Shown here piece after piece: positions 9,727-64,000 of a stretch of 64,000 nt of DNA (its first letter is position 1; the number at the start of each line of letters is the position of its first letter). The position numbers were made by a program, and so were the translations under genes. The DNA is from an uncultured Clostridia bacterium (GTDB lineage: Bacteria > Bacillota > Clostridia > Christensenellales > Borkfalkiaceae). The notes beneath the pieces are model-generated. The model saw only the letters and a list, made by a program, of their open reading frames with translations. It was not told the origin of the DNA and made no database searches. Location: the NCBI GenBank assembly GCA_944368215.1, contig CALVWX010000002.1, forward strand, positions 45,624 through 109,623, read 5' to 3'.

Positions 9727-10851
9727 ATGGAAGAAATTAACAAGGAAGGCATAATCGAAGAAGCTTATAAGCTTGAAACCGATGAAGCCCTCGAAGAAAC
9801 GTTAGAAACGCCGCCTTCGCCTCAGCCCGGGGAACACGGAGAAGAGGAAGAAATGTCCATCGCGGACAACGTCCGCGCGCTCAGCCCCACAAGGCTGGTA
9901 TTGAAGCGCTTCTTCCGTTCAAAGCTTTCGGTCATCGGTTTGGCCATGATAATATTCCTGTTTGTGTTCTGCTGGATAGGTCCGCTCTTTTCTCCCTATG
10001 AAGAAAACGAGATGGCTGCAGGCACCGGTGAATACGTCAGCGTAACAACGTTGGTTGTACAACCCGTCGGCGACGAAGATTTTGAACCTTACACCGTATA
10101 TATCGTCAGAAGAACTGAAGCTCAGCTCAGCAGAAACGCGCCCCCTTCGGCCGACCACTGGCTCGGAACGGACAGCGAGGGCAGAGATATCCTCACCCGT
10201 ATAATGTATGGCGGCAGGGTTTCGCTTACGCTCAGCTTGATAGTCGTCTTCCTTGAAGCGATAATCGGCATTATTTTGGGCGGACTTGCAGGCTACTTCG
10301 GGAAATGGGTAGATACGCTCATAATGCGTATAATCGATATTTTCAACTGTATCCCTACGTTGCCGCTGCTGCTTATCATAGGCTCGGTGCTCGACGGTGC
10401 GGGCGTCAACCCCAATGTCAGAATATACTTTATGATGGTATTCCTGACGTTGCTGGGCTGGACGGGCGTCGCTCGAATAGTCCGCGGACAGATTCTGTCG
10501 CTGCGTGAACAGGAATTCATGGTTTCTGCTACCGCAAGGGGGCTTTCGACAACGCGCAAAATTTTCCGTCACCTCGTGCCCAACGTCATACCTCAGCTCA
10601 TTGTATCCATGACGCTCGGCCTCGGTTCGGTAATACTTATGGAAGCGTCGCTCTCGTACATGGGTCTCGGCGTTCCACTGACCAGCGCATCGTGGGGCGG
10701 TATGATTAACGCCGTAAAAGATCCGCTCGTTCTTACAAACTACATCAACCTCTGGGTACCCCCCGGAATATGCATCGTTCTCGCGGTGCTCGGTTTCAAC
10801 TTTATCGGCGACGGTCTTCGCGATGCGTTCGACCCTAAAGCAAAAAGGTAA
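9727..10851 (+). CDS. oppC: Oligopeptide ABC transporter permease OppC
   Basis: Second permease of the Opp complex (374 residues from ATG 9727, preceded by aggaga). It begins with an unusual ~55-residue Glu/Pro-rich cytoplasmic extension, then the OppC N-terminal pattern RFFRSKLSVIGLAMIIFLF. A periplasm-side segment contains the conserved HWLGTDSEGRDILTRIMYGG block, and the EAA coupling loop is at ~265-295 (ATARGLSTTRKIFRHLVPN). The C-terminal FIGDGLRDAFDPKAKR is typical of the family. The acidic N-terminal tail also occurs in the partner ATPase OppF, so the tails may be lineage-specific regulatory or assembly elements. Confidence 0.93.
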   Translation: MEEINKEGIIEEAYKLETDEALEETLETPPSPQPGEHGEEEEMSIADNVRALSPTRLVLKRFFRSKLSVIGLAMIIFLFVFCWIGPLFSPYEENEMAAGTGEYVSVTTLVVQPVGDEDFEPYTVYIVRRTEAQLSRNAPPSADHWLGTDSEGRDILTRIMYGGRVSLTLSLIVVFLEAIIGIILGGLAGYFGKWVDTLIMRIIDIFNCIPTLPLLLIIGSVLDGAGVNPNVRIYFMMVFLTLLGWTGVARIVRGQILSLREQEFMVSATARGLSTTRKIFRHLVPNVIPQLIVSMTLGLGSVILMEASLSYMGLGVPLTSASWGGMINAVKDPLVLTNYINLWVPPGICIVLAVLGFNFIGDGLRDAFDPKAKR

Positions 10852-10860
10852 GAGTATAAA

Positions 10861-12075
10861 ATGTTATTCAAAAAACGCACAACAACTCAATCCGAAAGCT
10901 CTGAAGGCGGCGAAGTTAAAAAATCGGCGCCCAAGGGCAATCCGCACTATCTTTCGGCAAAGGAATCGCGCGAAATCGCAAAGAGCAACGCCCGCACGAT
11001 TCGTGAGTTAGAAAAGAAGAAGAGGGTCAAGCATGTGGATGAAAGCATGTATACATGCCGGATGCACGACGAAAACAACATTGTTGAATTCGATGACCTT
11101 CACACATATTTCTTTACCGACGCAGGCGTTTCCAAGGCTGTCGACGGCGTTACGTTTTCCATCCCGAAGGGTGCAACGGTGGGCGTCGTCGGCGAATCCG
11201 GTTGCGGCAAATCTGTAACCAGCCTTTCGCTCATGCAGCTTGTTCAGTCCCCCCAGGGGCAGATAGTCAGCGGCGAAATACGCTTCAATATGGGTGACAA
11301 AGCTTACGATATCGCCAAGATGCCGGTCAGCGAAATGCGCAAAATCCGCGGCAAACAGATTGCCATGATTTTCCAGGAACCAATGACCAGCCTCAATCCT
11401 GTATTCCGCATCGGTTATCAGATCGATGAAATGGTGCTTCTGCACACGGGTTGCACTAAAGAAGAGGCAAAGGAGCGTAGCATAGAAATGCTGAAGCTCG
11501 TCGGTATAGCCGCTCCCGAGCGCGTTTACCGTTGTTACCCGCACGAACTTTCGGGCGGCATGCGTCAGCGCGTGATGATAGCAATCGCGCTGTCGTGCAA
11601 TCCCAGACTAATCATAGCGGACGAACCTACAACCGCTCTCGACGTTACCATTCAGGCCCAGATTCTTGACCTTTTAAGGGAAATAAAGGACAAAATCGAC
11701 GGTTCCGTCATGCTGATAACGCACGATCTCGGCGTAATTGCAGAAATGGCAGACTATGTCGTCGTCATGTATGCGGGACGAGTCATTGAAACGGGAACGA
11801 CCGAGGAAATTTTCCGCAACCCTCTGCATCCTTATACAATAGGTCTGCAGAAGAGCAAGCCCGTCGTCGGACGTAAAATCGACAGACTGTACAATATCCC
11901 CGGACAGGTTCCCAACCCCATCGATATGCCTGACTTCTGCTACTTCAAGGACAGATGCGACAGATGTATAGATAAATGCAACGGCGAGTATCCCCACTTT
12001 ATCCATGTTTCGCCCACGCACCGCGTGTCGTGCTATCTTTATGAAGGCATGGAAGGCAAAGGAGGTTCCAAATGA
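10861..12075 (+). CDS. oppD: Oligopeptide ABC transporter ATP-binding protein OppD
   Basis: ATPase subunit powering peptide import, 404 residues. After a Lys/Ser-rich ~60-residue extension it has Walker A GESGCGKS (~119), the ABC signature LSGGMRQR, Walker B LIIADEPTTALD and H-loop LITHDL. The C-terminal oligo_HPY domain carries clustered cysteines (CYFKDRCDRCIDKC ... SCYLY), a pattern linked in OppD/DppD proteins to an iron-sulfur cluster. It ends in ATGA overlapping the start of oppF by 4 nt, indicating translational coupling. Confidence 0.95.
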   Translation: MLFKKRTTTQSESSEGGEVKKSAPKGNPHYLSAKESREIAKSNARTIRELEKKKRVKHVDESMYTCRMHDENNIVEFDDLHTYFFTDAGVSKAVDGVTFSIPKGATVGVVGESGCGKSVTSLSLMQLVQSPQGQIVSGEIRFNMGDKAYDIAKMPVSEMRKIRGKQIAMIFQEPMTSLNPVFRIGYQIDEMVLLHTGCTKEEAKERSIEMLKLVGIAAPERVYRCYPHELSGGMRQRVMIAIALSCNPRLIIADEPTTALDVTIQAQILDLLREIKDKIDGSVMLITHDLGVIAEMADYVVVMYAGRVIETGTTEEIFRNPLHPYTIGLQKSKPVVGRKIDRLYNIPGQVPNPIDMPDFCYFKDRCDRCIDKCNGEYPHFIHVSPTHRVSCYLYEGMEGKGGSK

Positions 12076-13169
12076 GCGAAAATCTCTTAGAAAACCCCGA
12101 AAATACCTCTGTTCCCGAAGAAGCTGTGCTCGACGCCGTTCAGCAGGAGGAAGAGAAAGCGGAGGAACAGGCAGTCATACCTGAAGAACCTCTCGACCCC
12201 GACGCTCTTCTCGAAGTGCGTCACCTCAAGAAGTATTTCCCCGCCAAAAAAGATTTCTTCGGCAGACCGATTTCATTTGTAAAGGCTGTCGACGACGTCA
12301 GCTTTAAAATAGAAAAGGGTACGACGCTCGGCATAGTCGGCGAATCGGGTTGCGGCAAAACAACGCTCGGCCGTACAATTCTGCGCCTTCAGCCCGCTAC
12401 GGACGGTCAGATTTATTTCGACGGCAAAGATATCAATAAGCTTAAAACCGCAGAAATGAACGCGCTCCGTCCACAGATGCAGATAATCTTTCAGGACCCT
12501 TATTCCAGCCTTTCGCCCCGAATGCCCGTCGGTGAAATTATCGGCGAGGCTGTGGCACAGCATAAGCTCGTGCCTAAGTCAGAGCTAAAGGAATATGTCC
12601 TCGAAGTAATGAAGAGCTGCGGCCTTCCCTATCATTATTACGAGCGCTACCCGCATGAATTTTCGGGCGGCCAGCGTCAGCGTATATGTATAGCTACGGC
12701 TCTCGCTCTCAAGCCCCGTTTCGTCGTCTGCGACGAACCCGTATCCGCGCTCGACGTTTCCATTCAGGCGCAGATAATCAACCTGCTTAAAGATATGCAG
12801 GAGAAGATGGGGCTTACTTATATATTTATCTCGCACGACCTTTCGGTCGTCGAGCATATCTCCGACAGAGTAGGCGTAATGTACCTCGGAAGTCTGGTTG
12901 AATACGGCAACACGGACGATATATTTACCAATCCCATGCATCCGTACACCGAAGCATTGTTTTCGGCAGTGCCCATACCCGACCCTGACAGGCATTCCAA
13001 GCGCATTATTTTAAGCGGGGATATTCCCAGCCCTATAAATGCACCTTCCGGTTGCAAATTCCATACGCGTTGCAATCACTGTATGGAAATCTGCAAGGAA
13101 GTTGCGCCTAAATTCAGGGATTACGGCAACGGACACATGGTGGCATGCCATCTCTATCCCCAGGAATAA
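12072..13169 (+). CDS. oppF: Oligopeptide ABC transporter ATP-binding protein OppF
   Basis: Second ATPase of the Opp importer, 365 residues, starting at the ATGA overlap with oppD; aggagg lies just upstream inside oppD. An acidic ~40-residue tail precedes the ABC domain: Walker A GESGCGKT, signature FSGGQRQR, Walker [13 protein letters not shown] and H-loop FISHDL. The C-terminal oligo_HPY domain again has four spaced cysteines ([14 protein letters not shown] and AC near the end). The heterodimer OppD-OppF is typical of Bacillota peptide importers. Confidence 0.95.
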
Positions 13170-45567: not shown

Positions 45568-47976
45568 TTATACGATTATGTTTATCAGGCGCTTGGGCAC
45601 CACGATAAACTTTTTAATGTGCTTGCCTTCTATTAAAGGAGCAACTTCAGGGTGTGCTTTGACCTTTGCCTCGATTTGGTCTGAAGGCATGTCGGCGGGC
45701 AGCGAAATCTTTGTCTTGATTTTGCTGTTGACCTGAACGGCGTATTCAAATGCGTCTTCTCCGCACTTGCTTTCGTCATATTCGGGCCATTTTTCGTATG
45801 CCATCGTGCCGTTGTGGCCTAAAGCGGTATTCCATATCTCTTCGGTAAGGAAGGGAATGACGGGGTTTAAAAGCCTGCACAATCCTTCGGCGTATGCGCG
45901 TGGGAATGGTTTGCCTTCGCCGATTTCCTTATATACGGCGTTGACAAAAATCATCATCTGTGAAATGGCGGTGTTTACCTTAAGTGCCATGTAATCTTCG
46001 CCGACCTTTTTGACGGTCTGATTATATATCTTGTCGAGCGAGGGATTGGCTTCGTCTCTGATTGCTCCGCTTTCAAAGTAAAGCCTGTGAATTCTGTCTA
46101 TAAATTTCTTAACGCCCTCTATGTTGGCGGTGTTCCAGGGCTTTGTGTCGGCTACGGGGCCCATGAACATTTCGTACATTCTTAAAACGTCTGCGCCGTA
46201 ATCGCGCACGATGTCGTTGGGGTTTATGACGTTGCCCTTGGATTTTGACATTTTTTCGCCGTCTTCGCCCAGAATCATGCCTTGGTGGAAGAGCTTTTTG
46301 AATGGCTCTTTATAAGGAACATAACCTTTGTCGTAGAGGAAGTTGTTCCAGAAGCGCGAATATAAAAGGTGTCCCACAAGGTGTTCCTTGCCGCCGCAGT
46401 AAAAGTCTACGGGCATCCAGTGCTTTAAAAGCTCATAGTCGGCAAATTTTTCGTCGTTGCGGGGGTCGCAGTAGCGGAGGAAATACCAGCTCGACCCTGC
46501 CGAACCGGGCATTGTCGTCGTCTCTCTCTTGCCCTTTTTGCCCTTGTAAACTATGTTGACCCAGTCCTTGGCGTTTTCAAGGGGCGCCTTGCCGTCGTGA
46601 GCTTTATAATCGTCCATCTCGGGCAGGACGAGAGGGAGCTCGTCGTCGTTGAGAAAGGCTACTTCGCCGTCTTCAAGGTGAACTACGGGCAGCGGCTCGC
46701 CCCAGTATCTCTGTCGCGCGAAAATCCACTCGCGCAACTTGTACGTGACGGCCTTTTTGCCGCAGTTGTGCTCGGTCAGCCACTCGGCCATTTTGTCAAT
46801 GGCGTCCTGCTTGTTCAGGCCGTTCAAAAATCCCGAATTGATGTGTACGCCGTCCTGTGTCCATGCCTCTTTTTGTATATCGCCGCCTTCAAGCACCTGA
46901 ATGACGGGCAGATTGAACTTTTTGGCGAACTCGTAGTCGCGCGTGTCGTGCGCGGGCACGGCCATTATCGCGCCCGTGCCGTAGGAGGTGAGCACGTAAT
47001 CGGATATCCATATGGGAACTTTATTGCCGTTTACGGGATTGACGGCATATGCGCCCGTAAACGCGCCCGTCTTGTCTTTGTTGAGTTCCGTGCGCTCAAG
47101 GTCAGACTTGCTCGCGCAGACCTTTTTGTAGGCATCTATTTCTGCCTTTCTGTCGGGCGTGGTTATCTTGTCGACTAGATTATGCTCGGGCGCGAGAACG
47201 CAGTATGTCGCGCCGAAGAGCGTGTCGCAGCGCGTTGTGAAAACGGTGAACTGCTCGTCTGTGCCGTCTACTTTGAATATGACGTTGGCGCCCACCGATT
47301 TGCCGATCCAGTTGCGCTGGGCGACTTTGGAAGGTTCCGGCCAGTCAAGTTCGTCAAGCCCTTCCAGAAGCCTTTCGGCATACTTGTTGATGTCGATGAC
47401 CCATTGCTTCATGTTCCTGCGCACAACGGGATAGCCGCCGCGTTCGCTCTTGCCGTCAATTATTTCATCGTTTGCGAGCACGGTGCCCAGCTCTTCGCAC
47501 CAGTTTACGGGCGTTTCTACATATCTTGCAAGTCCTGCTTCCGCCAGCTGTTTGAAAATCCATTGCGTCCATTTGTAGTAGGAGGGGTCGCAGGTCGAAA
47601 TGGTCTGTGTCCAGTCGTAGGACAGCCCGAGCATTTTTAGCTGGGACGTAAACGTCTCGATATTCTGCTGAGTGAATGCTCCGGGGTGGTGACCGGTATT
47701 TATTGCGTATTGTTCGGCAGGCAGACCGAAGCTGTCGAATCCGATGGGGTGCAGAACGTTATAGCCCTGCATGCGCTTCATGCGCGCGATTATATCCGTA
47801 GCCGTGTAACCTTCGGGGTGGCCTACGTGAAGTCCCGCGCCGGAAGGGTAGGGGAACATATCCAAAACGTAATATTTGGGCTTGGAAAAATCGTGCAGAT
47901 CGGTGTGGAAGGTGCCGTTCTTTTCCCAGTATTCAGCCCATTTTTTTTCTACTGCATTAAAATCGGTATATGCCAT
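45568..47976 (-). CDS. leuS: Leucyl-tRNA synthetase
   Basis: An 802-residue class I synthetase charging tRNA-Leu. The HIGH motif is HVGH ([10 protein letters not shown], ~50), the KMSKS motif is [11 protein letters not shown] (~575), and the CP1 editing domain is present ([24 protein letters not shown]), so misacylated norvalyl or isoleucyl products can be cleared. The anticodon-binding domain fills the last ~150 residues and is slightly shorter than in Bacillus. Start ATG 47976 has an aggaag site. No leucine T-box is visible in the short upstream leader, although thrS nearby has one. Confidence 0.96.
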
Positions 47977-63140: not shown

Positions 63141-63575
63141 ATGTGGAATGAAAACGCGCCTTTGGAACTTTTAAAAGAACTCCCCGCTGTACTCAACGAG
63201 GCTAATCTCGCACGCCTTCAGCAGGTAATCGACTACGACAAATTTATCAACAGCTCGGAATGCGGCTATGACCTCTGCGGTCAGTATGCACCTTTCTGCG
63301 AAGGTTGCGACAAAACCGTTCAGTATCCCTGCGCCGTTTCGTATGTAAAGATGAAGCAGGCTGAAGGAATGGACATTAAAATTCAAAGCGAAGTAGAGGA
63401 AGTGCTTTCCGATGCGGCCGAAGAGTCCTGCGAATGCAGCGAACAGCCTTGCGAAGCACAGGAAGAGATTCCCTCGGCTGAAGCAGCGGAAGAAGCTCCC
63501 GTCGAAGAGGCTCCCGAAGAAGAAAAACCTGCTAAAAAACTCATCCGCATTGCAATCGCAAGGCGCAGAGTTTAA
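63141..63575 (+). CDS. Cys-rich putative metal- or Fe-S-binding protein with acidic tail
   Basis: The start is ATG 63141, nine bases after a perfect aaggagg; the earlier in-frame codons overlap the promoter. The 144-residue product has a compact N-terminal region (~1-80) with cysteines in CGYDLCGQYAPFCEGC and a further Cys ten residues on, which could bind Zn2+ or an Fe-S cluster. A long Glu/Pro/Ala-rich tail follows (with CECSEQPCEAQEE) and ends in a basic RIAIARRRV. I do not recognise a named family. It is monocistronic, behind a good promoter and in front of a terminator. Confidence 0.75.
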   Translation: MWNENAPLELLKELPAVLNEANLARLQQVIDYDKFINSSECGYDLCGQYAPFCEGCDKTVQYPCAVSYVKMKQAEGMDIKIQSEVEEVLSDAAEESCECSEQPCEAQEEIPSAEAAEEAPVEEAPEEEKPAKKLIRIAIARRRV

Positions 63576-63756: not shown

Positions 63757-63785
63757 TTGACAATCGGGCCTAATTAAAATATAAT
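63757..63785 (+). promoter_or_regulatory. Perfect consensus promoter in front of tRNA-like elements
   Basis: TTGACA (63757-63762), exactly 17 nt, TATAAT (63780-63785). Transcription would begin near 63792, 15 nt before the first tRNA-like element. The preceding bases 63644-63756 hold no recognised feature. Confidence 0.85.
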
Positions 63786-63806
63786 ATTCAAGTAATGTGT
63801 TTGAAC

Positions 63807-63900
63807 GCTGTTATGGCTCAGCAGGTAGAGCACGTCCTTGGTAAGGAATATCGGGGCGAAAAGCGGGGTGAGCCGAAACCCTTCAAAATTCGGCAAAAAC
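63807..63900 (+). ncRNA. tRNA-Thr(GGU)-like element lacking a T-arm, copy 1
   Basis: The 5' half matches tRNA-Thr: D-arm GGCTC-AGCAGGTA-GAGC and anticodon loop TTGGTAA (anticodon GGT). The lower anticodon stem is poor (CGTCC against GGAAT) and no GGTTCGAATCC-type T-arm, 3' acceptor strand or CCA follows. Instead there is a structured 3' part: GGGT (63866-63869) can pair with ACCC (63878-63881), while GCCGAA (63872-63877) pairs with TTCGGC (63889-63894), together an H-type pseudoknot. 87 of 93 compared bases match copy 2. Confidence 0.6.
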
Positions 63901-63907
63901 TTCATTC

Positions 63908-64000
63908 GCTGATATGGCTCAGTAGGTAGAGCACGTCCTTGGTAAGGAATATCGGTGCGAAAAGCGGGGCAAGCCGAAACCCCTCAAAATTCGGCAAAAA
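63908..64000 (+). ncRNA. tRNA-Thr(GGU)-like element lacking a T-arm, copy 2 (reaches window end)
   Basis: Repeats copy 1 with a 101-nt period and a 7-nt spacer (ttcattc). D-arm, anticodon loop TTGGTAA and the pseudoknot partners are kept: GGGG (63966-63969) with CCCC (63980-63983) and GCCGAA (63973-63978) with TTCGGC (63990-63995). Here the 5' GCTGATA could pair with TATCGGT just after the anticodon arm, but copy 1 does not support that pairing. Further copies, or a complete tRNA-Thr, may follow beyond base 64000. Confidence 0.58.

Follow-up and report, generated by a model that had tools for sequence, protein, structure and literature searches.

Half tRNA-Thr(GGU) genes as probable scars of serial, tRNA-dependent integration in Clostridia

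The tRNA-Thr(GGU) Locus

The window analyzed here is a stretch of 64,000 nucleotides from an uncultured Clostridia bacterium (assembly GCA_944368215.1, contig CALVWX010000002.1; G000:C2:45624-109623, where G, C, and L numbers are our handles for genomes, contigs, and loci). Its end coincides with the end of contig C2 (109,623 bases); thus, the tRNA-Thr array located there is truncated, and how the array ends was hidden from the first-pass annotation. A Cys-rich gene, in which a Pfam scan found no match, is followed by a promoter and two tRNA-Thr-like units (Table 1). Each unit consists of the 5' half of a tRNA-Thr(GGU), which stops precisely where the anticodon loop does (TTGGTAA; last base at 63844 in unit 1 and at 63945 in unit 2), and a tail of ~60 nt, the departure from tRNA-Thr occurring just after the loop. 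Between the two units, the tails are nearly identical and the 5' halves are different. In the closest members of the tail A family, GCTGATATGGCTCAGTAGG...TATCAGCTCCA comes after the tail.

The structural description in the first-pass annotation agrees with our results. The TTGACA-17-TATAAT promoter matches at 12 of 12 positions, the units repeat with a period of 101, ARAGORN finds no tRNA in either of them, and both tails can be read as two crossing stems, GGGG(T)/(A)CCC(C) and GCCGAA/TTCGGC. An Rfam search of unit 2 remained below threshold (22.6 bits versus a cut-off of 29). Elsewhere in the window, a match to the T-box leader RF00230 (48357-48534, plus strand; E 1.3e-11; its 64.2 bits fall short of the gathering score, 93) is consistent with the thrS T-box named in that annotation.

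Table 1. Features at the downstream end of the window, in window coordinates
Feature	Position	Strand	Evidence or remark
Host flank gene, 144 aa, Cys-rich	63141..63575	+	Homologue adjoins single tRNA-Thr(GGU) in congeners (L009, L016, L018, and others)
Putative promoter of the original host tRNA-Thr gene, TTGACA-17-TATAAT	63757..63785	+	12/12; in congener G001 a homologous promoter precedes a single intact tRNA-Thr(GGU)
Unit 1: presumed host tRNA-Thr(GGU) 5' half up to the anticodon-loop crossover, putative outer attL	63807..63844	+	3' half at G000:C3:52223-52267
Putative crossover core TTGGTAAGGA, common to attB and attL	63838..63847	+	Identical core at both putative attR sites on C3
Tail 1, of the tail A family; probably the attP arm of the element that integrated first	63845..63907	+	Linkage to following tRNA; phasing; arm motif
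Two crossing stems GGGGT/ACCCT and GCCGAA/TTCGGC, tail A family	63865..63894	+	Read from sequence; family comparison
AAACTTCATTC, resembling the arm motif, immediately 5' of the next tRNA start	63897..63907	+	Variant of motif AAAACTTAATA, by eye
Unit 2: presumed 5' half of the first element's own tRNA-Thr, putative inner attL	63908..63945	+	Apparently broken by a second integration; 3' half at G000:C3:46549-46593
Tail 2 (tail A family), cut by contig end	63946..64000	+	Intact tRNA-Thr of the second element predicted next

Displaced 3' Halves and the Empty Site

Contig C3 of the same genome carries two orphan tRNA-Thr 3' halves on one strand, with cores at 46549 and 52223, 5,674 bp apart. The first orphan ends with TATCAGC and pairs at 7/7 positions with unit 2 (GCTGATA), and the second ends with TAACAGC and pairs at 7/7 positions with unit 1 (GCTGTTA); when swapped between the units, each orphan forms 6/7 acceptor pairs, a difference of one acceptor position per half. 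No orphan half was called a tRNA by ARAGORN. We designate the ~5.6 kb between the orphans (C3:46594-52222) as E1, which would have been split by a second, ICE-like element, E2, ending at C3:46548. One integrase gene with a PF00589 domain (C3:46875-48296, minus strand) is positioned just behind the first orphan on the opposite strand, and another (C3:44870-46321, plus strand), also with PF00589, just before it, and the E1 and E2 integrases share 46% identity. Genes for a MobL relaxase and a T4SS coupling protein (C3:8515-11999), along with a VirB4-like gene recognized by eye, lie to the left of the integrases. As C3 begins with gal-type genes (by eye), the galactokinase-like one of which is matched in 27 of 61 genomes of the genus, the left end of E2 is uncertain. 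A DnaB_2 gene (C3:52420-54126) is located beyond the second orphan.

An empty site was observed in two congeneric loci (L009 and L016), which contain a DnaB_2 gene, a single intact tRNA-Thr, and a homologue of the window-end gene. Since these two homologues flank one tRNA-Thr, the sides of the empty site correspond to the window end and C3:52268. The orientation of the tRNA relative to the window-end gene varies between congeners. The order in G000 would accordingly read: host 5' half, tail, E1 5' half, tail, an assembly gap in which the E2 tRNA is expected, E2, E1 3' half, E1 body, and host 3' half; the C2-C3 junction is unassembled, and neither an intact E2 tRNA nor an E2 left end is found in G000. 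In a conventional island, the split gene is restored by sequence of the element, whereas here a tail follows the host 5' half and the host 3' half is orphaned. The interpretation in the first-pass annotation is partly supported: of its three options, that of an integration-site relic is the right one.

Open reading frames containing 'AGFEPATSSLP' run antisense through orphan tRNA 3' halves (L341:6451-6813 and 12143-12382, on G000:C3), and such frames may be markers of displaced tRNA ends.

Arrays in the Order and Beyond

A search of 396 genomes of the order, plus fetched loci, revealed many arrays, in other families too, consisting of one to three or more units with an intact tRNA-Thr(GGU) immediately after them. 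As a rule, this gene closes the array unless the contig ends earlier, L123 (an intact copy and then a broken one) being an exception, and units farther upstream are often decayed. In G000, the position after the last half-unit, occupied by an intact tRNA-Thr(GGU) in relatives, is the assembly gap. A half-unit and an intact gene after it were counted by hand in at least 52 of the 396 genomes; the true number may be higher, since fetching concentrated on genomes having two or more pattern hits. In several genomes (e.g., G242, G175, and G340) all tRNA-Thr(GGU) pattern matches are within the array. Recurrence of this design, with an intact tRNA-Thr at its end, in many genomes of the order puts the pattern far beyond chance. 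The grouping of G000 and its kin into one order follows kinship labels, and Christensenellales is the probable name of this order.

A second scan, covering one genome per GTDB species with a pattern imposing a period of 98-103, yielded at least 118 stretches, which a crude sort divided into 90 with a half-unit as first copy (including a few repeats or other tRNAs, e.g., L215 and L294), 19 tandem intact genes, and 9 other repeats. The 80 matches listed are mostly from uncultured Clostridia (Gallimonas, Ornithoclostridium, Caccovivens, and 'Christensenella sp.') and also include Anaerocaecibacter muris; NCBI places Ornithoclostridium in Christensenellales, and Gallimonas and A. muris elsewhere within Clostridia. 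One stretch outside Clostridia, in a Patescibacteria MAG by title (L265, 2913-3026), is a half-unit by the crude rule only.

In phage and plasmid collections, the matches listed (20 of 611 and 20 of 90) covered less than half of the query, in the 5' half, and the annotated ones among them are tRNA-Thr. Viral sequences scanned with the exact window junction gave nothing; the period pattern found one phage-like contig, L310 (IMGVR_UViG_3300029268_002483), with tail-type proteins, an integrase, and a cytosine methyltransferase recognized by eye, and the integrase end of this contig adjoins a half-unit and an intact tRNA-Thr. L310, phage-like in gene content by eye, appears to carry the same module in a phage, and MobL relaxases occur in both E2 and L175, with the T4SS coupling protein in E2.

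Several variants were also observed. Four loci (L118, L121, L122, and L123) contain tandem tRNA-Thr(GGU) genes with periods of ~145-164, in which a different 5' acceptor strand (CGGTTGAGGGCTCAG...) has taken the place of the usual one in the later copy, possibly the trace of an element with another crossover point. L154 and L180 (G357) have a unit of 131 bp, the tail of which contains GGAGGAGGTTAGATTATGGATATCGG, resembling a ribosome-binding site and start codon, between the half-unit and the intact tRNA. L184 (G252:C2, minus strand, near 1819 and 10834-10934) has two tRNA-Thr loci at a distance of 9.1 kb, the 3' halves of which are identical; the 5' half of the second is mismatched to its 3' half, which suggests anticodon-loop recombination between the loci. 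L036 (G019:C52) and L037 (G020:C44) were rejected as further cases. In G019, one copy of tRNA-Thr(CGU) has its T loop interrupted by a palindromic repeat, CGCGCGAGCGNAGCGANGCTTTGCCGAGGG...CGGCAAAATCCGG, and a similar repeat is found free downstream of the tRNA in G020.

Integrases Associated with the Arrays

A profile HMM grown from the integrase of L175, which other integrase families would escape, detected an integrase within 4.5 kb of 14/21 arrays versus 1/26 single tRNA-Thr genes, with the counted hits on the strand opposite to the tRNA; the sole match beside a single gene (L341) is at the displaced 3' half of E1 itself, which had wrongly been taken for a single gene. The corresponding rates were 15/30 versus 1/27 at 3 kb and 14/60 versus 2/82 at 1.3 kb. 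No L175-type integrase was matched in 10 of the 30 arrays with at least 3 kb downstream, three of which (L177, L188, and L208) have tail A. All three integrases scanned contain PF00589, and two contain a SAM-like domain. Mean identity was 71% between integrases whose arrays share a tail cluster (35 pairs) versus 36% otherwise (343 pairs), and 0/2000 label shuffles reached this association (28 integrases, some of them near-identical).

The integrase of E1 is closest (85%) to that of L205, an element with another tail, and near-identical tails in the window go with integrases of 46% identity, so that either tandem duplication of one unit or a reshuffling of integrases and tails is conceivable. 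The former would mean a single integration, followed by duplication of the 101-bp unit through recombination between near-identical 5' halves; it would account for the similarity of the two tails, and identical neighbouring tails were also found in L155. We nevertheless regard it as improbable, as the 5' halves differ, each of the two distinct displaced 3' halves on C3 matches one of them, and two different integrases are present, all of which argues for two separate integrations.

The Tails as Probable Attachment Arms

Core-to-core distances in 30 of 31 tail clusters fall at 68-72, 77-81, 90-92, 99-103, 110-112, and 120-123. The phase length was R=0.76 at 10.5 bp, with one of the 31 clusters (period 131) left out and the clusters partly non-independent, and 0/5000 sets jittered by up to 6 bp reached this value; the loci came from searches with no or wide period limits (gap pattern 30-60), those from the 98-103-period pattern being excluded. 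The motif AAAACTTAATA, picked by eye from the same tails, occurs in 33/47 tail clusters versus a shuffled mean of 6.9 and ends 29-31, 38-43, 51-53, 61-62, or 74 bp from the core in 30/33; its best period is nearer 11 than 10.5 (R 0.63 versus 0.59), and it often coincides with the tail end. In addition, tail self-similarity peaks at lag 10 (z=5.4 versus base shuffles). For the motif and pseudoknot analyses, L223, L248, L294, and L300 (low-complexity repeats or another tRNA) were dropped from 51 clusters; L248 and L294 were kept in the self-similarity analysis.

Integrase arm sites, unlike RNA, are expected to be spaced by whole turns of B-DNA. By analogy with known integrases, the spacing of the tails therefore points to an integrase arm region, and the tail is probably an attP arm with arm-type integrase binding. 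That arm length is phased to helical turns seems to us a likely reading of these distances.

Pseudoknots were searched for with our own program (stacking energies, base-shuffle control) in the 29 of 47 clusters with 50-70-nt tails. The mean z was -0.28, i.e., no general signal over shuffles, and p was 0.01 or less in 4/29 clusters, including tails A and C, in both of which the signal is strong. The first stem of tail A is kept through different sequences (GGGG/CCCC, AGGT/ACCT, and ACAG/CTGT); as MAFFT mis-registers this stem between tail A subfamilies, these alternatives were read by eye. With a family-specific signal, the tail as an RNA part in general was rejected, and the pseudoknot of tail A may belong to the arm of one particular integrase or be a structured leader.

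The first-pass annotation had raised the option that the units are tRNA mimics, for example decoys for ThrRS or the thrS T-box. Such functional RNAs would be kept for their D arm, anticodon arm, and pseudoknot, and an anticodon nuclease would be another possible target. The promoter before the units, the well-kept D arm and anticodon loop, the first stem of tail A, the four clusters with low p, and the T-box match in the window are all compatible with this option. We consider it very improbable, however, since the anticodon stem is broken in many units of relatives (e.g., GCC-TTGGTAA-GAT), upstream units decay, conservation stops at a point of recombination instead of at the border of a structural domain, the pseudoknot is no general feature, and the missing 3' halves are found elsewhere in the genome. 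The intact anticodon half, for which that annotation offered no explanation, would be the untouched host half left of the crossover, and recent.

Linkage of the Tail to the Following tRNA

Across the order, a tail and the intact tRNA that follows it form one block, which is found behind differing upstream 5' halves. The downstream 5' half was more uniform than the upstream one in 8/10 tail clusters with at least four records, and the opposite was observed in 2/10; the 195 distinct records compared include a few spurious repeats, and the four loci dropped from the motif analysis were kept among them. Full acceptor pairing, with G-U allowed, was found for 98/100 intact tRNAs with their own 5' half versus 52/100 with that of the preceding unit. 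As the tail travels with the following tRNA, and the tRNA pairs with its own half, the crossover is placed in the anticodon loop, with the host to the left and the newcomer to the right. From attL and attR of L175, E2, and E1, the core measures 8-13 bp (TTGGTAAG...).

Eight candidate orphan 3' halves were found in relatives, comprising four real tRNA-Thr 3' halves (L175, L101, L274, and L132) and four apparent chance matches. In L175 (G242), the displaced half lies 13.2 kb downstream of the intact tRNA, with a tyrosine integrase and a MobL relaxase between them; the distance is 1.2 kb in L101 and 1.5 kb in L274, and in L132 (G282) the orphan is on a separate contig from its array. For all four, pairing with the first unit is better than that with the intact tRNA. 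The third unit of L175 nearly equals the first (acceptor 7/7 in both; three versus four Watson-Crick pairs in the anticodon stem), so that this locus demonstrates displacement and separates the units weakly.

These data also bear on tandem duplication and decay of a tRNA-Thr array, a process requiring no mobile elements. Tandem intact tRNA-Thr genes do exist in L118, L121, L122, and elsewhere (e.g., Thalassospira), and the "decayed array" of the first-pass annotation describes only some older, upstream units. As an account of the arrays it is hardly credible, as the units share a sharp breakpoint at TTGGTAA, the tails are linked to the following tRNA, and the matching 3' halves are displaced by kilobases and lie beside integrase genes in G000 and L175. 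Circular 101-bp elements and integron- or CRISPR-like growth, suggested by a seemingly constant unit length, were dropped in view of the kilobase elements, integrases, and attR sites.

Promoter Signals

Among 90 single genes, 66% have a promoter-like score of at least 9/12 upstream (shuffled 19%); among 162 first units, some of which are not truly first, the share is 41% (shuffled 23%). Inside arrays, such scores occurred in 4% of 112 stretches before an intact tRNA (shuffled 12%). Given this low frequency, the element tRNA appears to have no promoter of its own and to be transcribed from that of the host, and promoter capture is, judging from these sequence signals, quite likely.

Probable Serial Integration into the tRNA-Thr(GGU) Gene

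Both kinds of broken half, with their matching counterparts, together with the integrases, the empty site of the congeners, the linkage between tail and tRNA, and the few promoter signals in tails, lead us to conclude, with a probability of roughly 0.9, that the units are scars (attL) of serial, tRNA-dependent integration into the host tRNA-Thr(GGU) gene. In G000, elements would have entered the anticodon loop site-specifically at least twice, one nested in the other. A tyrosine integrase would recombine the core in the loop and split the host gene, leaving the promoter and 5' half at the left and moving the 3' half to the far end of the element. The element would leave the split gene unrestored and bring a complete tRNA-Thr(GGU), with no promoter signal, behind an attP arm of ~60 bp, and upon integration this tRNA would be transcribed from the host tRNA promoter. 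As the new tRNA would again be a perfect target, the next element could insert there, and the array would grow at its downstream end.

A broader joint reading, which we favour with some reserve, is that a lineage-wide module is used by phages, ICEs, and IMEs in Christensenellales-type Clostridia. The element would destroy the host's only tRNA-Thr(GGU) and supply a replacement without a promoter, which would remain silent as long as the element is circular and be expressed only once the host promoter is captured, so that cell survival would be coupled to element retention and the target renewed each time. The tRNA gene would thus become the property of successive elements, the upstream half-tRNAs an ordered record of past insertions, and the arm length would be held to whole helical turns.

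If so, an odd pair of half-tRNAs becomes a readable record of serial mobile-element insertion, and the module would act as a simple addiction device, in which loss of the element other than by precise excision costs the cell its tRNA-Thr(GGU). The phased tail lengths offer a test of integrase arm geometry, from sequence alone, over dozens of natural variants. In addition, the module may account for contig breaks at this locus in MAGs and for the half tRNAs and orphan tRNA tails there.

Comparison with Known Systems

Lambda- and Tn916-type tyrosine integrases have an N-terminal arm-binding domain. The present system resembles this type in its PF00589 domain and in a near-core motif as a possible arm site, and differs in its target, the anticodon loop of tRNA-Thr, and in an arm that doubles as the leader of the element's tRNA.

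The following comparisons refer to the accessible parts of the cited papers. Fragments of tRNA genes left by integration have been described (PMC9897764). In the genomic islands collected by Islander, a fragment on the island restores the split gene and one fragment is left, the 3' one in 3760 cases and the 5' one in 159 (PMC4383910). Our elements share with the anticodon-centred islands among them a crossover in the anticodon loop, a displaced tDNA fragment, a tyrosine integrase, and tandem occurrence; unlike in those islands, both halves stay broken here and a third, complete gene is supplied (PMC4383910).

The closest known system is the tRNA-dependent lysogeny of mycobacteriophages, described for the actinobacteriophages Fionnbharth, LeBron, and Gaia (PMC10865867). 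As in these phages, a tyrosine integrase is used, attB is inside a tRNA gene, the tRNA is not restored, and the element carries a complete tRNA of the same isotype; the core is 8-17 bp in the phages and 8-13 bp here (PMC10865867). In the examples given in that paper, the phage tRNA is apart from the attachment junction, whereas here it is directly behind the attP arm, and the Fionnbharth tRNA has its own, tested promoter, whereas here no promoter signal is seen and that of the host is apparently used (PMC10865867). Our set further differs from the actinobacteriophages in including ICE- and IME-like elements, in repeated stacking at one tRNA, and in its Clostridia hosts. How far tRNA-dependent lysogeny extends outside actinobacteriophages was left open by the authors, who cite the prophage Lj965 of Lactobacillus johnsonii, in which the junction tRNA is unrestored and a cognate tRNA is encoded (PMC10865867); the likeness to our elements lies in these two features, and Lj965 is a single prophage.

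In Sinorhizobium meliloti prophages, substitution of a host tRNA gene by a phage-borne one was inferred by the authors (PMC11476347) and likened to tRNA-dependent lysogeny (PMC11476347, PMC12429752); in phiLM21-like prophages host tRNAs are reported to be rebuilt, and that report refers back to the replacement case (PMC12429752). Replacement of tRNA genes outside actinobacteriophages is therefore already in print. The Sinorhizobium prophages concern different tRNAs and hosts, and the layout, promoter use, and stacking described here were not found in the accessible parts of these two papers (PMC11476347, PMC12429752). No literature on the Clostridia module was found among the matches listed, in a search made largely without subscription journals.

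Genetic tests of tRNA-dependent integration exist for actinobacteriophages, and for Lj965 and some Sinorhizobium prophages it has been inferred (PMC10865867, PMC11476347). On our reading, it would also occur in Clostridia, in elements that have conjugation genes, and with a replacement tRNA that depends on the host promoter. What would be new here is the promoter capture, the serial stacking, and the use by phage-, ICE-, and IME-like elements in Clostridia, which together would represent a new variant of tRNA-dependent integration.
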